This document shows, one piece after another, positions 2,684 to 7,501 of a DNA stretch of 64,000 nt. A model generated the notes under the pieces. It saw only the letters and a list, made by a program, of their open reading frames with translations, was not told the DNA's origin and did no database searches. The stretch is from the NCBI GenBank assembly GCA_003330885.1, contig CP030277.1:1178001-1242000 (forward strand), read 5' to 3'. The stretch is from Rhodobiaceae bacterium (GTDB lineage Bacteria; Pseudomonadota; Alphaproteobacteria; Parvibaculales; Parvibaculaceae). The number at the start of each line of letters is the position of its first letter. Position 1 is the stretch's first letter. The translations under genes were made by a program, and so were the position numbers.

Positions 2684-3769
2684 ATGGTTAAACTCACATT
2701 CACAGGTCCATTTTCGTTGCGCCTACGAAGCTTTGCAAAGCTAAGTCAAATCGCGACGAAGGTATATTTGCGCCACGCATTTAACAAGCGCATTGCGCCT
2801 GATTGGGACGCAAATACCGAGATTGGGATTCGCTTCGTGCGCCACCAGTTCACCGCCGCGATGACCCATCAGGATATTGCCAAAGGCCGTCTCTTGTTTG
2901 ATAGCGTTCAGACCGAGACGGACGATCAATACGATGTGACAACAGAACCATCAACAAATCCAATGGGAACGTGGTACTATCCAAAGACGATCCGTACGGA
3001 AACAAAATTGCTCTATCTTCATGGTGGCGGATATACGTTTCATGGCGGTGTCAGCGATCGTTTCGCCGCGATGCTTGCTCATCATACCGGCAATGTCCTC
3101 TTCGCACCTCACTATCGCTTAACGCCGGAGCACCCTCACCCAGCCCAGGCCGAAGACGCGTTGGAAGCCTGGACATACATGACACGCAAAACTGCACCGA
3201 AAAATATTGTCACAATTGGCGACAGTGCCGGCGGGCATATGGCGCTGATGCTTCTGCAAACATTGAGAATGGAGGGATTGGACCAACCGGCTCTTTGCAT
3301 CGGTCTTTGTCCCTGGACCGACATTGGCGAAAGAGGAGCGAGTCTACGCGACAATGACCGGTACGACCTGGTGCAGGGATGGATGGCCTTAAAGTTTGGC
3401 GAGTGGCTCGACCCGGGAAACAAATTCGGACGCGAAACACTCTCGCCCATTTTCCAAGACTTCTCTGGCTTGGCACCCATTTACCTGCAGGCTGGGGGTC
3501 GTGAAATGCTCCGCGATATGATCGTAGAGTTTGCGCAAATACAAAGATCGAAAGGCGCAGATGTAACACTCGATCTCTGGTCGGACATGCCCCACGTTTT
3601 TCAGGCCTATGACAGTCTGACAGAGTCTTCTTCAATGGCGCTTAACAGAATTGCAACCGTCATCAAGGCGAGAGCAGAAAATAATACGCATTTCCAGTCG
3701 TTAGAGGAGATCACCGTCGGCTCAAATTACCCAAAGAACCAGTCTGAGACTGGCAGGGCGTCAGCTTGA
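2684..3769 (+). CDS. Alpha/beta hydrolase (HSL-type esterase/lipase)
   Basis: The oxyanion-hole motif LYLHGGGYTFHGG lies at about residue 110 and the nucleophile elbow GDSAGGHMAL about 75 residues later. The later segment QAGGREMLRDM and the histidine in MPHVFQ supply the remaining triad region. These are the hallmarks of the hormone-sensitive-lipase branch (alpha/beta hydrolase fold-3), which cleaves short or medium acyl esters. The frame stays open to a GTG at 2663 and also offers an ATG at 2675. I prefer ATG 2684 because AAGG stands 9 bases before it, giving 361 residues. The last 9 bases overlap the convergent glucosidase gene. The true substrate is unknown. Confidence 0.85.
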   Translation: MVKLTFTGPFSLRLRSFAKLSQIATKVYLRHAFNKRIAPDWDANTEIGIRFVRHQFTAAMTHQDIAKGRLLFDSVQTETDDQYDVTTEPSTNPMGTWYYPKTIRTETKLLYLHGGGYTFHGGVSDRFAAMLAHHTGNVLFAPHYRLTPEHPHPAQAEDALEAWTYMTRKTAPKNIVTIGDSAGGHMALMLLQTLRMEGLDQPALCIGLCPWTDIGERGASLRDNDRYDLVQGWMALKFGEWLDPGNKFGRETLSPIFQDFSGLAPIYLQAGGREMLRDMIVEFAQIQRSKGADVTLDLWSDMPHVFQAYDSLTESSSMALNRIATVIKARAENNTHFQSLEEITVGSNYPKNQSETGRASA

Positions 3770-5413
3770 AGAGGGATCACCAAAGAAGGCAGCGCTCCGC
3801 GGACCGCAGATGACCTCTGTTCCCACGATCGAAACATCGCCCGTTCCAAATTCCAGACTGTCGGATCCTTTGAGAATAACCTCAGACGCCGCTCCCCCAT
3901 GCCAAACAGCAGCCTCATTGCTTGAATTGAAGACACAGGTGAGCGTCTCCCCACCAAGCAACCGTTCAAATGCCAGAACGGGTCCGCTGCTTTCTAAGAA
4001 AGTAATATTGCCGCTCGACAAACAGGCGTGTGCCTTTCGGAAACTGATAGCCTCCCGCGCGAACTTCAGGACCGTGTCGGTCACCGCTTCCTGAACATCG
4101 ACAGCGCGCTCTTTGTGCACCTTCGGGATTGGTAGCCAGGGTTCGCCATCCGTAAACGCTGCATTCGGTGCGCGACTGATCCATGGCATGGGTGTCCGAC
4201 ATCCATCTCGCCCTTTGCCGAATGGGAAATAGAGCTCACCCACCGGGTCTTGGATCTGGTCGCGCTCTATATCGACATCGGGAAGTCCGAGCTCCTCCCC
4301 TTGGTAGAGAAGGACAGTCCCTTTCAGCGCCAAAAGAAGCGCCAGTCCGAACTTGGCCAACTTGTCGTCGCCATCTCTTCCGCTCCCCCATCGGGTGACA
4401 GGTCGTGTGAGATCATGATTGGAGAAAGTGACACAGGGCCAGGGGTCGCCGTTTTTCTTCAACGTATCCTGGTAATAGTTCTGAAAGACCGAGGGCGCGA
4501 GCGATCGGTCCTCTAGAAAATCAAATGTATAGGCCGTATGCAGCAAATCAGGCTCACCCACATACGTCCCAATCATTTCAGGCGTCTCCGCAAACTCGCC
4601 AAATGCCAAGCGGTCCTCATATTCATCTAGAACAGATCGCACAGCTCGCATGGCGATCTGATTTTCTGGCAAACCGCTATCGTGAACATGTTCCTGTAAC
4701 CGTGGAGCATGCGACCAGTTAAGGCCGCTACGCTCCGCCATCGCCACCGGCGGATTATCGGCGAGCGTGGCGTCATGGTAATAGGCATGCGCCACATCCA
4801 GGCGGAACCCGTCCACTCCTCTGTCGAGCCAGAACCTCAACACGTTCATAAGGGCTTTCACAACCTCGGGTTCATGAAAATTCAGCTTCGGCTGCTGGCG
4901 CAGAAATTTATGGTGGTAGTATTGCCGACGTACCGGGTGCCAGGACCATGCAGGCCCGCCAAAGGCAGACATCCAATTATTGGGCGGCGTACCGTCTTCC
5001 TTTGCATCTGCCCAGACATACCAATTCGCCTTTTCGTTGTCAGGAGAGAGTAGGCTCTCCTGAAACCATGCATGCTGGTCAGAGCTATGGGCGAGCACCT
5101 GATCCAAGATGAGCTTCATGCCGCGCTCATGGGTTTCGGCCAACAGCGCATCGAACCCGTCGAGCGTTCCCATCTCAGGCGCGACATCACAATAATCAGC
5201 AACGTCATAGCCAAAGTCTTTGTTTGGGCTGGGATAGATCGGAGACAGCCAGATCGCATCAACCCCTAACGAGGCGACATAATCCAGTTTCCGCTTGATG
5301 CCCTCAAGATCGCCCACCCCGGATCCCGTCGTGTCTGCATAGCTCCTTGGATATATCTGGTACACAACCGCGCCCTTCCACCAGGGCGTCTTCTCCGAAC
5401 CACTCATATGCAT
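3761..5413 (-). CDS. Alpha-glucosidase, glycoside hydrolase family 13
   Basis: A 550-residue GH13 enzyme of the oligo-1,6-glucosidase/alpha-glucosidase type. The N-terminus GAVVYQIYPRSYADTTG is the usual first strand. The nucleophile sits in VDGFRLDVAHAYYHD, the acid/base in FGEFAE, and the transition-state aspartate in FSNHDLTRPVTRWG. The C-terminal beta domain is present, so the protein looks complete and cytoplasmic (no signal peptide). It hydrolyses terminal alpha-glucosidic bonds of sucrose, maltose or isomaltose-like substrates. It stands alone, without a transporter or sugar regulator nearby; the divergent neighbour starts 73 bases away. Exact linkage specificity cannot be read safely. 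Confidence 0.9.
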   Translation of the reverse strand: MHMSGSEKTPWWKGAVVYQIYPRSYADTTGSGVGDLEGIKRKLDYVASLGVDAIWLSPIYPSPNKDFGYDVADYCDVAPEMGTLDGFDALLAETHERGMKLILDQVLAHSSDQHAWFQESLLSPDNEKANWYVWADAKEDGTPPNNWMSAFGGPAWSWHPVRRQYYHHKFLRQQPKLNFHEPEVVKALMNVLRFWLDRGVDGFRLDVAHAYYHDATLADNPPVAMAERSGLNWSHAPRLQEHVHDSGLPENQIAMRAVRSVLDEYEDRLAFGEFAETPEMIGTYVGEPDLLHTAYTFDFLEDRSLAPSVFQNYYQDTLKKNGDPWPCVTFSNHDLTRPVTRWGSGRDGDDKLAKFGLALLLALKGTVLLYQGEELGLPDVDIERDQIQDPVGELYFPFGKGRDGCRTPMPWISRAPNAAFTDGEPWLPIPKVHKERAVDVQEAVTDTVLKFAREAISFRKAHACLSSGNITFLESSGPVLAFERLLGGETLTCVFNSSNEAAVWHGGAASEVILKGSDSLEFGTGDVSIVGTEVICGPRSAAFFGDPSSS

Positions 5414-5476
5414 CCCCTAAAATATCGCGCTTCACTTAGGTAAATGCTACATCAGGAACAAGCACATGAATATGTT

Positions 5477-5481
5477 GGAGG
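5477..5481 (+). promoter_or_regulatory. Strong ribosome binding site deciding the start of the dehalogenase-like gene
   Basis: GGAGG stands 5 bases before the ATG at 5487. An earlier in-frame ATG at 5466 has no such signal and would add seven residues before the conserved first beta strand, so 5487 is preferred. Confidence 0.75.
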
Positions 5482-5486
5482 TAAGC

Positions 5487-6233
5487 ATGAGCGAGCTAGC
5501 AGGCACCATTGTTCTAATAACGGATATTGAACATTTCATAGGACGCCCGGCAGCAAAGGCGCTTATTGAAGCCGGCGCCACGGTCTATGGAACCGACCAC
5601 GCCTTTTCAGACAAGACAGCTCGCGAGGCGGCGGAACAAGCCCTGCCCGGCCTCAAGACCGTCGGTGGCGCAGATCCGGTCGTCGCAGCGGGGCGTGTGC
5701 TGGAGGAAACAGGCCGCATTGACCTCCTTCTAAACAATGACGCTTTCCCAGCACTAAGAGCGTCTCTCGATACGGCAAAAGATGAAGATCTTGAAGCGAC
5801 CTATGACGCCCTCGTCTTTAAGCCATTTCGTGTCAGCCGCGCCGTCGTCCCGTCCATGAAATCTGCGGGCGGTGGCAAGATATTGTTCCTCACCTCAGCA
5901 GCGCCACTCAACGGCCTCGCAAACTACTCCATGTACGCTTCTGCACGAGGAGCAGCGAACTCACTCGTTTTGTCTCTTGCACGTGAGCTCGCGTCGAAGA
6001 ACATTCAGGTTAACGCACTCGCTCCTAACTACGTCGAGAGTGCGGACTATTTTCCACCTGCGCTTATGGAAAATGAGGACACCAAGGCCAAGATTTTGAA
6101 AAACATCCCCCTCGGGCGTTTAGGGAAACCGGAAGAAGCCGCTGCCTTCATCACGTTCCTTGCAGGTCCTCTTTCCGGCTTTATCACTGGCCAGGTCATC
6201 CCTTTTGCAGGCGGTTGGGCAAACGCCCGGTAA
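5487..6233 (+). CDS. Probable halohydrin dehalogenase (SDR-like, S-Y-R triad)
   Basis: At 248 residues it has the size and fold pattern of short-chain dehydrogenases, but both cofactor and catalytic motifs are altered in the way that defines halohydrin dehalogenases. The N-terminal dinucleotide motif T-G-x3-G-x-G is replaced by T12-D-I-E-H-F17-I-G19, that is T-x4-F-x-G, where the aromatic residue forms part of the halide pocket. The catalytic site is S137-x12-Y150-x3-R154 (TSAAPLNGLANYSMYASARG), with arginine in place of the SDR lysine. Segments LLNNDAF, FKPFRV and APNYVES also resemble HheC as I remember it. Such enzymes convert vicinal haloalcohols to epoxides and the reverse, without NAD(P). 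A small methyltransferase follows 8 bases later. Activity and subtype (HheA-G) are inference. Confidence 0.8.
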   Translation: MSELAGTIVLITDIEHFIGRPAAKALIEAGATVYGTDHAFSDKTAREAAEQALPGLKTVGGADPVVAAGRVLEETGRIDLLLNNDAFPALRASLDTAKDEDLEATYDALVFKPFRVSRAVVPSMKSAGGGKILFLTSAAPLNGLANYSMYASARGAANSLVLSLARELASKNIQVNALAPNYVESADYFPPALMENEDTKAKILKNIPLGRLGKPEEAAAFITFLAGPLSGFITGQVIPFAGGWANAR

Positions 6234-6241
6234 GAAGCGCC

Positions 6242-6757
6242 ATGAGTTCAAAATACGAAGAAATCTACAAAGCGCATCGTCACGCGCTTGGTGAACCCAC
6301 CAAGACATTCGTCGACTTCTTTACGTCATTGGAGAAACCAGAACAGACCGTGCTTGATATTGGAGCAGGTCAAGGACGTGATGCTCTCTTCATTGCCAGA
6401 CTCGGCCATTCCGTTACGGCGGTCGACCTCTCTCCGTCAGGCATGATGCAACTTCAGGAAGACGCAAACCAAGAAGAGTTGAACATCAAAACCCATATTG
6501 TCGATGTTTGCGAGTTCACACCCTCAGCGAAATTCGACATTGTCCTGATCGATCGAACGCTGCATATGCTGAATGCACAAGACCGAACAGCTGTTCTCTC
6601 TAGTCTATTGCCTCATACAAACAGTCAGGCCTTTCTGCTGATTGCGGACGAGCGTTCAAACATTCCAGCCTTTACACAAACCCTCAATGCTTCGACGGAC
6701 CCCTGGGAGATCTTCCTGCAAAAGAAGGGCTTTCTCTTCGCGCAGAAGCAAATCTAG
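6242..6757 (+). CDS. Class I SAM-dependent methyltransferase, small
   Basis: A 171-residue Rossmann methyltransferase. Motif I reads VLDIGAGQGRDALFIARLG, followed by VTAVDLSPSGM (motif II acidic residue) and the FDIVLIDRTLHML segment at motif IV. The short size and layout recall TehB-like or thiol/chalcogen methyltransferases, but no substrate-specific feature is clear. ATG 6242 is chosen; the frame is open to a TTG at 6215 inside the upstream gene, which lacks a better ribosome binding site. It begins 8 bases after the stop of the halohydrin-dehalogenase-like gene and is probably co-transcribed. Its stop lies 3 bases from the stop of the convergent sirtuin gene. Confidence 0.8.
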   Translation: MSSKYEEIYKAHRHALGEPTKTFVDFFTSLEKPEQTVLDIGAGQGRDALFIARLGHSVTAVDLSPSGMMQLQEDANQEELNIKTHIVDVCEFTPSAKFDIVLIDRTLHMLNAQDRTAVLSSLLPHTNSQAFLLIADERSNIPAFTQTLNASTDPWEIFLQKKGFLFAQKQI

Positions 6758-6760
6758 ACA

Positions 6761-7501
6761 TCAGTTGAGCTGAACAATGGGGGCGAGTGTCGGTCCAATC
6801 TCCTCATGCACGACAAGGTCTGCAAGCGGGTCCAGCTCCGTTTCTTCACGGTTTAATATCACAAGTTTCGCGCCATTCTTTTTCGCCATGATCGGGAAAC
6901 CCGCTGCCGGATAGACCTGCAGTGACGAGCCAATCGCGACAAACAGGTCGCAGTCCAATGTCGCTTCTGTCGCCCGCTCCATCTCAGCTTCCGGCATCGC
7001 CTGTCCAAAGGAGATCGTCGCAGATTTGATAATCCCACTGCAAAACCGGCAGTCCTGTGGCTTGCCGTGTTCGTCGTAGTGCGAACGGATTTCCGCCAAC
7101 TCATAGCGCACACCGCAATTAAGGCAGGTCGCATAAGTACTGTTCCCATGGAGCTCGATCACCTTGTCAGTCGGGATCCCTGAGTTTTGGTGAAGATTAT
7201 CGACATTCTGGGTAATCACGTGAGTGACTTTTCCCGTATCAACCAATTTTGCGACGGCCATATGCCCTTTATTGGGCTCCGCTGCTGAAAAGCTCCCATC
7301 CATTGCGAACTTGCGACGCCACGCTTCGATCCGCATTTCTTCAGAGGCCATAAAATCTCGAAAATCAATCGGGGCCATTTTTGTCCAAAGGCCACCCGGA
7401 CTGCGAAAATCAGGGATGCCGGATTCCGTACTGATCCCCGCTCCCGTGAAGACGACAGTCCGTTGGCTGCTCTCAATCAGTGCCTTCAGCTCTCCAGACA
7501 T
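6761..7501 (-). CDS. cobB: NAD-dependent protein deacylase, SIR2 family
   Basis: The NAD-binding motif VVFTGAGISTESGIPDFRS, the catalytic block ITQNVDNLHQNSG with histidine in ELHGNS, and a four-cysteine zinc site (CLNCG ... CRFCSG) are all present in order. The protein removes acyl groups from lysines using NAD+. The pattern STESGIPDFRSPGGLW and the later VFIAIGSSLQV-like segment (VAIGSSLQVYPAAG) are standard. I place the start at ATG 7501 (246 residues) because GGGAGAGGGT stands directly before it; the frame runs on to 7591, which would overlap the divergent glyoxalase gene. Whether it prefers acetyl or longer acyl groups is not clear. Confidence 0.92.
   Translation of the reverse strand: MSGELKALIESSQRTVVFTGAGISTESGIPDFRSPGGLWTKMAPIDFRDFMASEEMRIEAWRRKFAMDGSFSAAEPNKGHMAVAKLVDTGKVTHVITQNVDNLHQNSGIPTDKVIELHGNSTYATCLNCGVRYELAEIRSHYDEHGKPQDCRFCSGIIKSATISFGQAMPEAEMERATEATLDCDLFVAIGSSLQVYPAAGFPIMAKKNGAKLVILNREETELDPLADLVVHEEIGPTLAPIVQLN

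Follow-up and report, generated by a model that had tools for sequence, protein, structure and literature searches.

The window, a stretch of 64,000 nucleotides from a Rhodobiaceae bacterium, contains an open frame at 5487-6233 on the forward strand that encodes a protein of 248 amino acids. A longer open reading frame begins at ATG 5466 (255 aa), although ATG 5487, the start taken in the first-pass annotation, is the better of the two because GGAGGT at 5477-5482, read by eye, lies just ahead of it. A consensus-site search of 5380-6900 found no promoter- or terminator-like sites. Upstream lies a GH13-type gene on the reverse strand (3761-5413) with a Pfam alpha-amylase domain, for which the best NCBIfam model was 'beta-galactosidase BglA' at 649 bits, below the cut-off of 900. 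A short SAM methyltransferase gene, TehB-like according to Pfam (6242-6757, forward strand), starts with an ATG 8 bases past the stop codon. The features of the gene, a probable halohydrin dehalogenase (HHDH), are as follows.

5477..5482, forward strand: GGAGGT, probable ribosome-binding site of ATG 5487 (read by eye)
5487..6233, forward strand: probable HHDH gene, 248 aa, A/C branch, HheA3-like (motifs, PDB sequence matches, tree, residues, predicted fold)
5520..5543, forward strand: motif 1, T12-x4-F17-x-G19, where SDRs have their glycine-rich NAD(P) loop; nucleophile pocket in HHDHs (motif match and alignment; definition of PMC4989007)
5733..5747, forward strand: NNDAF, residues 83-87, where most SDRs of the genome have NNAG (alignment)
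5811..5813, forward strand: L109, aligned with Asn of most genome SDRs (alignment)
5895..5948, forward strand: motif 2, S137-x12-Y150-x3-R154, catalytic triad (motif match and alignment)
6024..6032, forward strand: P180-N181-Y182, PN[YF] replacing the SDR PG loop (alignment)
6048..6056, forward strand: Y188-F189-P190, aromatic segment conserved in HHDH rows (alignments)

Both HHDH motifs were present exactly where they had been claimed from the letters, motif 1 reading TDIEHFIG and motif 2 reading SAAPLNGLANYSMYASAR. The pair T-x4-F/Y-x-G and S-x12-Y-x3-R is described as specific to HHDHs in PMC4989007 and PMC11976700, and the latter gives T-G/A-x3-G/A-x-G and S-x10-14-Y-x3-K for classical NAD(P)-dependent SDRs. 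Neither classical motif was present in the window protein. PMC4989007 reports that filtering with the HHDH pair yielded 37 novel HHDH genes, a chosen 19 of which were confirmed to be active. A search of the 3.86-Mb genome with PF13561 returned 62 places, one of which was a further, C-terminal fragment of a gene already listed, and the set examined consisted of 61 SDR-type genes, namely the window gene and 60 paralogues. The window gene alone carried both HHDH motifs (1/61), while the SDR glycine pattern was found in 50 and Y-x3-K in 51 of the 61 genes. One paralogue (L131) matched the motif-2 pattern out of register and kept Y-x3-K. In two others (L158 and L166) the loops read VGVGDATG and TGVGPGTG, respectively, and no Y-x3-K was found.

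To compare diagnostic residues, 55 HHDH rows were aligned with the 60 own-genome SDR paralogues. The window protein has D13 and F17 where 59/60 and 55/60 paralogues, respectively, have glycine, and F17 was shared by 52 of the 55 HHDH rows, the remaining three being gaps in rows with C-terminal segments only. The change from NAG to NDA places D85 opposite alanine in 48/60 paralogues and A86 opposite glycine in 46/60. L109 stands opposite an asparagine, the SDR catalytic Asn, in 41/60 paralogues, and leucine or methionine occupies this position in 53/55 HHDH rows. R154 replaces a lysine found in 57/60 paralogues (two have arginine), and N181, shared by 54/55 HHDH rows, replaces a glycine found in 49/60 paralogues (PG to PN). 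S137, Y150 and R154 were present in all 55 HHDH rows. By alignment, these replacements fit a nucleophile pocket at the nicotinamide site. Segments of HheC cited in the first-pass annotation were partly borne out, as NNDAF, FKPF and APNY do occur in the window protein but their HheC counterparts SNDIF, IRPF and GPNY are similar rather than identical.

The prediction that routine annotation would return an SDR held, as Pfam assigned adh_short_C2 and adh_short and, among the 25 models listed of the 201 NCBIfam families matched at E <= 0.001, none reached its own cut-off. Routine profiles show HHDHs such as the window protein only as 'SDR'. In a sequence search of the PDB the best match was 6a41, a 'dehalogenase' (E 1.4e-65), with HheC and HheA chains next (9.4e-37 to 1.9e-34) and then 7b73 (3.7e-34) and 8xxb (5.3e-32), which are HheD2 and HheD8 according to their entry titles. 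The first FabG chain came later (6.8e-27), and HheB (1.8e-26) and the HHDH 7wkq (3.6e-26) ranked below the first FabG chains. An AlphaFold monomer model built from a 41-sequence alignment (pLDDT 94.4, pTM 0.92) had dehalogenases as its nearest solved structures, occupying ranks 1 to 8 in Foldseek, with an SDR dehydrogenase at rank 9, and ranks 1 to 11 in VIA-align. The 6a41 structure was again first (Z 36.8, rmsd 1.2 over 244 residues) and most HheC chains reached Z 33-34, while HheA (32.4-32.6) was tied with the best SDR (32.2). Judged from the predicted model, the fold alone discriminates HHDHs from SDRs poorly and the argument is carried by the residues and the tree.

The tree comprised 68 rows: the window protein, seven genome-search sequences, 40 of 80 loci from a contig scan, seven PDB references and 13 of the 60 paralogues. 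For HheB, HheD2 and HheD8 just the C-terminal segments entered, and the rows did not include subtypes E, F or G (HheG among them). All 13 own-genome SDRs fell on one side of a branch supported at 100/99 and the HHDHs on the other. HheB (4zd6), HheD2 and HheD8, which share the HHDH side of the tree and the S-Y-R triad with the window protein, nevertheless formed a separate group from it at 100/99 in this comparison based on C-terminal segments. The window protein fell in the other group (95/87) with 6a41, HheA, HheA2 and HheC, so that by sequence it belongs to the A/C branch and stands apart from HheB, HheD2 and HheD8. Within that branch the 68 rows, from which E, F and G are absent, did not separate the order of HheA and HheC.

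A closer relative was found in another family genome (G012), where the orthologue L016 shares 62% identity and both HHDH motifs with the window protein, although the genus differs. A query with HheA2 at E <= 1e-15 matched L016 only, and a query with the HheD2 segment matched it first (1.7e-36; next gene 4.3e-19). HheA3, a characterised enzyme, has its source in Parvibaculum lavamentivorans DS-1 (PMC4989007), and L016 is probably this HheA3 because it is the top HHDH-like gene in its genome. The first-pass annotation had called the subtype unknown, whereas the analysis now supports an A/C-branch position close to the probable HheA3. Its emphasis on the rarity of the family was overstated, in view of this probably characterised homologue and of the presence of both motifs in 78 of the 80 best loci of one scan (see below). 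The 6a41 structure, titled 'Dehalogenation enzyme', is 45-46% identical to the window protein but belongs to another lineage, with Reyranella sequences as tree neighbours. A literature search found no paper linking 6A41 with dehalogenase and none joining halohydrin dehalogenase and Reyranella, while a single paper mentioned the enzyme together with Parvibaculum. HheC (1pwx, 5kwe) and HheA/HheA2 (4z9f, 1zmo) have the same motifs, triad and fold at a low identity of 32-35%. The window protein ends four residues past GGW and lacks the C-terminal extension of HheC, a feature described for HheC alone in PMC4989007.

Taken at face value, the Pfam and NCBIfam names would make this an SDR oxidoreductase of the usual NAD(P)-dependent kind with motifs that only look HHDH-like, and the SDR-type overall fold, with some SDRs tying with HheA in Z, is in keeping with such a reading. 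It is nonetheless very improbable given the replacement of Gly13 by Asp, Gly17 by Phe, NAG by NDA, Asn by Leu and Lys by Arg, the 100/99 separation in the tree and the rank of dehalogenases as best matches by sequence. The proposal of an HHDH rather than a nicotinamide-dependent SDR was upheld, as the diagnostic residues and the predicted fold agreed with the sequence evidence, including the best PDB matches, and with a tree position outside the 13 own-genome SDRs. On the sequence and model evidence, we put the probability that the gene encodes a cofactor-free HHDH of the A/C branch, HheA3-like, at roughly 0.93. It is a new member of an enzyme family that is already characterised and used in industry, and it enlarges this biocatalytically valued family by one well-supported HHDH and a group of related sequences surrounding it.

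In the family mechanism given in PMC4989007, the serine binds the substrate hydroxyl, the tyrosine acts as base with its pKa lowered by the arginine, and the pocket that corresponds to the nicotinamide site of SDRs receives the leaving halide. By analogy, the window protein would most likely be a homotetramer in which the hydroxyl group of a vicinal haloalcohol is bound by Ser137 and deprotonated by Tyr150, whose pKa Arg154 lowers. The resulting alkoxide would then displace the adjacent halide to give an epoxide, with the halide exiting into a pocket that the F17 loop and, probably, the loop at N181-Y182 would line. In the reverse direction small anions such as halide, azide, cyanide or nitrite could open epoxides. 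A plausible job would be the conversion of halohydrins to epoxides that are opened by separate epoxide hydrolases of the cell.

The HHDH gene was present in all seven genus genomes, including its own, and a match at E <= 1e-35 was found in 27 of 40 family genomes. The 13 without a match at this threshold include several incomplete genomes, and in three of the 27 (G030, G031 and G035) the match was only a divergent relative of 35-38% identity. The copy in G034 was in two pieces on two contigs. Across a phylum sample, 2/398 genomes matched, own genome included, with at most six candidates per genome scored in the rows listed. One contig scan gave 146 stretches encoding a relative, and in the titles of the best 80 Rhodobiaceae/Parvibaculum, Sneathiella and Reyranella were prominent. 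A codon-usage gene pick missed the HHDH in seven of the 80 loci, and the motifs were therefore counted by direct translation of all 80 matched stretches, which gave both motifs in 78. The two variants have Met (L079:2683-3408) or Ser (L102:8001-8723) at the Thr position of motif 1 and are otherwise HHDH-like. In a plasmid search 225 records matched, all below 60% identity; the 25 listed were 33.7-35.7% identical, and those annotated were named FabG, SDR or glucose 1-dehydrogenase, one of them also acyl-CoA dehydrogenase.

The immediate upstream neighbour was a divergent GH13-type gene, homologous to that at 3761-5413, in 19 of 21 family-type loci (the window, L038-L055, L062 and L116). The exceptions were L055, with another gene, and L116, at a contig end with a poor gene call. 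Sir2- and glyoxalase-type genes mostly follow the HHDH gene in these loci, while the Sneathiella and Reyranella loci have other neighbours, a few of which resemble, by eye, PurK/PurE and UbiE/UbiB/Dfp genes. Pfam and NCBIfam searches of the neighbours revealed no recognisable dehalogenation or epoxide gene, and the neighbourhood was rejected as a clue to substrate. The methyltransferase at 6242 was left out of the proposed system since it is not directly downstream in the congeners examined: it was absent there in L010, L011, L014 and L015 (first 110 codons, three frames), and the next called gene in L038, L041 and L042 is Sir2-type.

Possible partners were also sought elsewhere in the genome. 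None of nine matches to the HAD type II haloacid dehalogenase family was over the cut-off. Two tandem EHN-type epoxide hydrolase genes lie approximately 1.39 Mb away (L186:7269-9662; G000:C1 about 2571768-2574161). EHN matches occurred in 25/25 family genomes searched, with two or more in 22, and were also present in five genomes in which no HHDH matched at E <= 1e-35 (G007, G008, G009, G013 and G023), for which reason these hydrolases were rejected as specific partners. It is only possible that they take up the epoxide products of the HHDH.

The presence of the gene in every genus genome, the retention of the upstream neighbour and dN/dS values of about 0.02 together suggest a standing native role. 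The latter values were 0.020, 0.024 and 0.023 in the three of six comparisons with genus orthologues that had finite dS (1.0, 1.2 and a saturated 4.6, respectively), the other three being not computable. They argue strongly against a decaying or catalytically dead relic, as do the intact frame and triad and the genus-wide presence. Loss of the gene does occur, as in the G016 remnant described below and perhaps among the 13 family genomes without a match, several of them incomplete, and a relic at this locus would still be the least probable of the readings considered. An enzyme of HHDH fold and without cofactor might instead carry out a different native Ser-Tyr-Arg reaction, for example one in which a non-halide anion opens cellular epoxides, with dehalogenation as a side activity. 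Several anions open epoxides in HHDHs according to PMC4989007, and the authors of PMC11976700 suspect that the tested HheC substrates are not the natural ones. The family conservation and purifying selection, with no recognised dehalogenation partner nearby, would suit such an enzyme, but nothing points directly to a substrate of this kind and the protein conserves the residues diagnostic of the nucleophile pocket in HHDHs. This alternative is judged unlikely though far from negligible.

For the HHDH itself, a tentative reading, to which we give slightly less than even weight, is that the Parvibaculaceae gene has long resided in the chromosome and serves a native physiological job, and that HHDHs are not mainly enzymes of xenobiotic degradation. 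Two forms of that job may be considered, which jointly are given no greater weight: a balance of halohydrins and epoxides in lipid or terpene metabolism that feeds the tandem epoxide hydrolases, or the reverse reaction, in which endogenous epoxides would be quenched with a cellular anion. On the physiological role of HHDHs, the literature matches listed contained nothing beyond PMC11976700. Because the gene occurs throughout the genus, keeps a conserved neighbour and is under strong purifying selection, the role of HHDHs in nature becomes testable.

Other observations concern copies that depart from the standard form. In G016 a 5'-truncated remnant covers residues 132-248 only (L034, G016:C12:166498-166848) and represents a probable gene loss in one species. 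By eye, the reading frame upstream of it looks like the C-terminal portion of the one at 147-1796 in the window. The divergent relatives in G030, G031 and G035 (L032, L033 and L035) form an HHDH-like clade in family genomes that have no standard copy. Two of these, L032 and L035, keep both motifs and have TGGV where the window protein has NNDA, a difference in sequence that perhaps reflects another nucleophile pocket.
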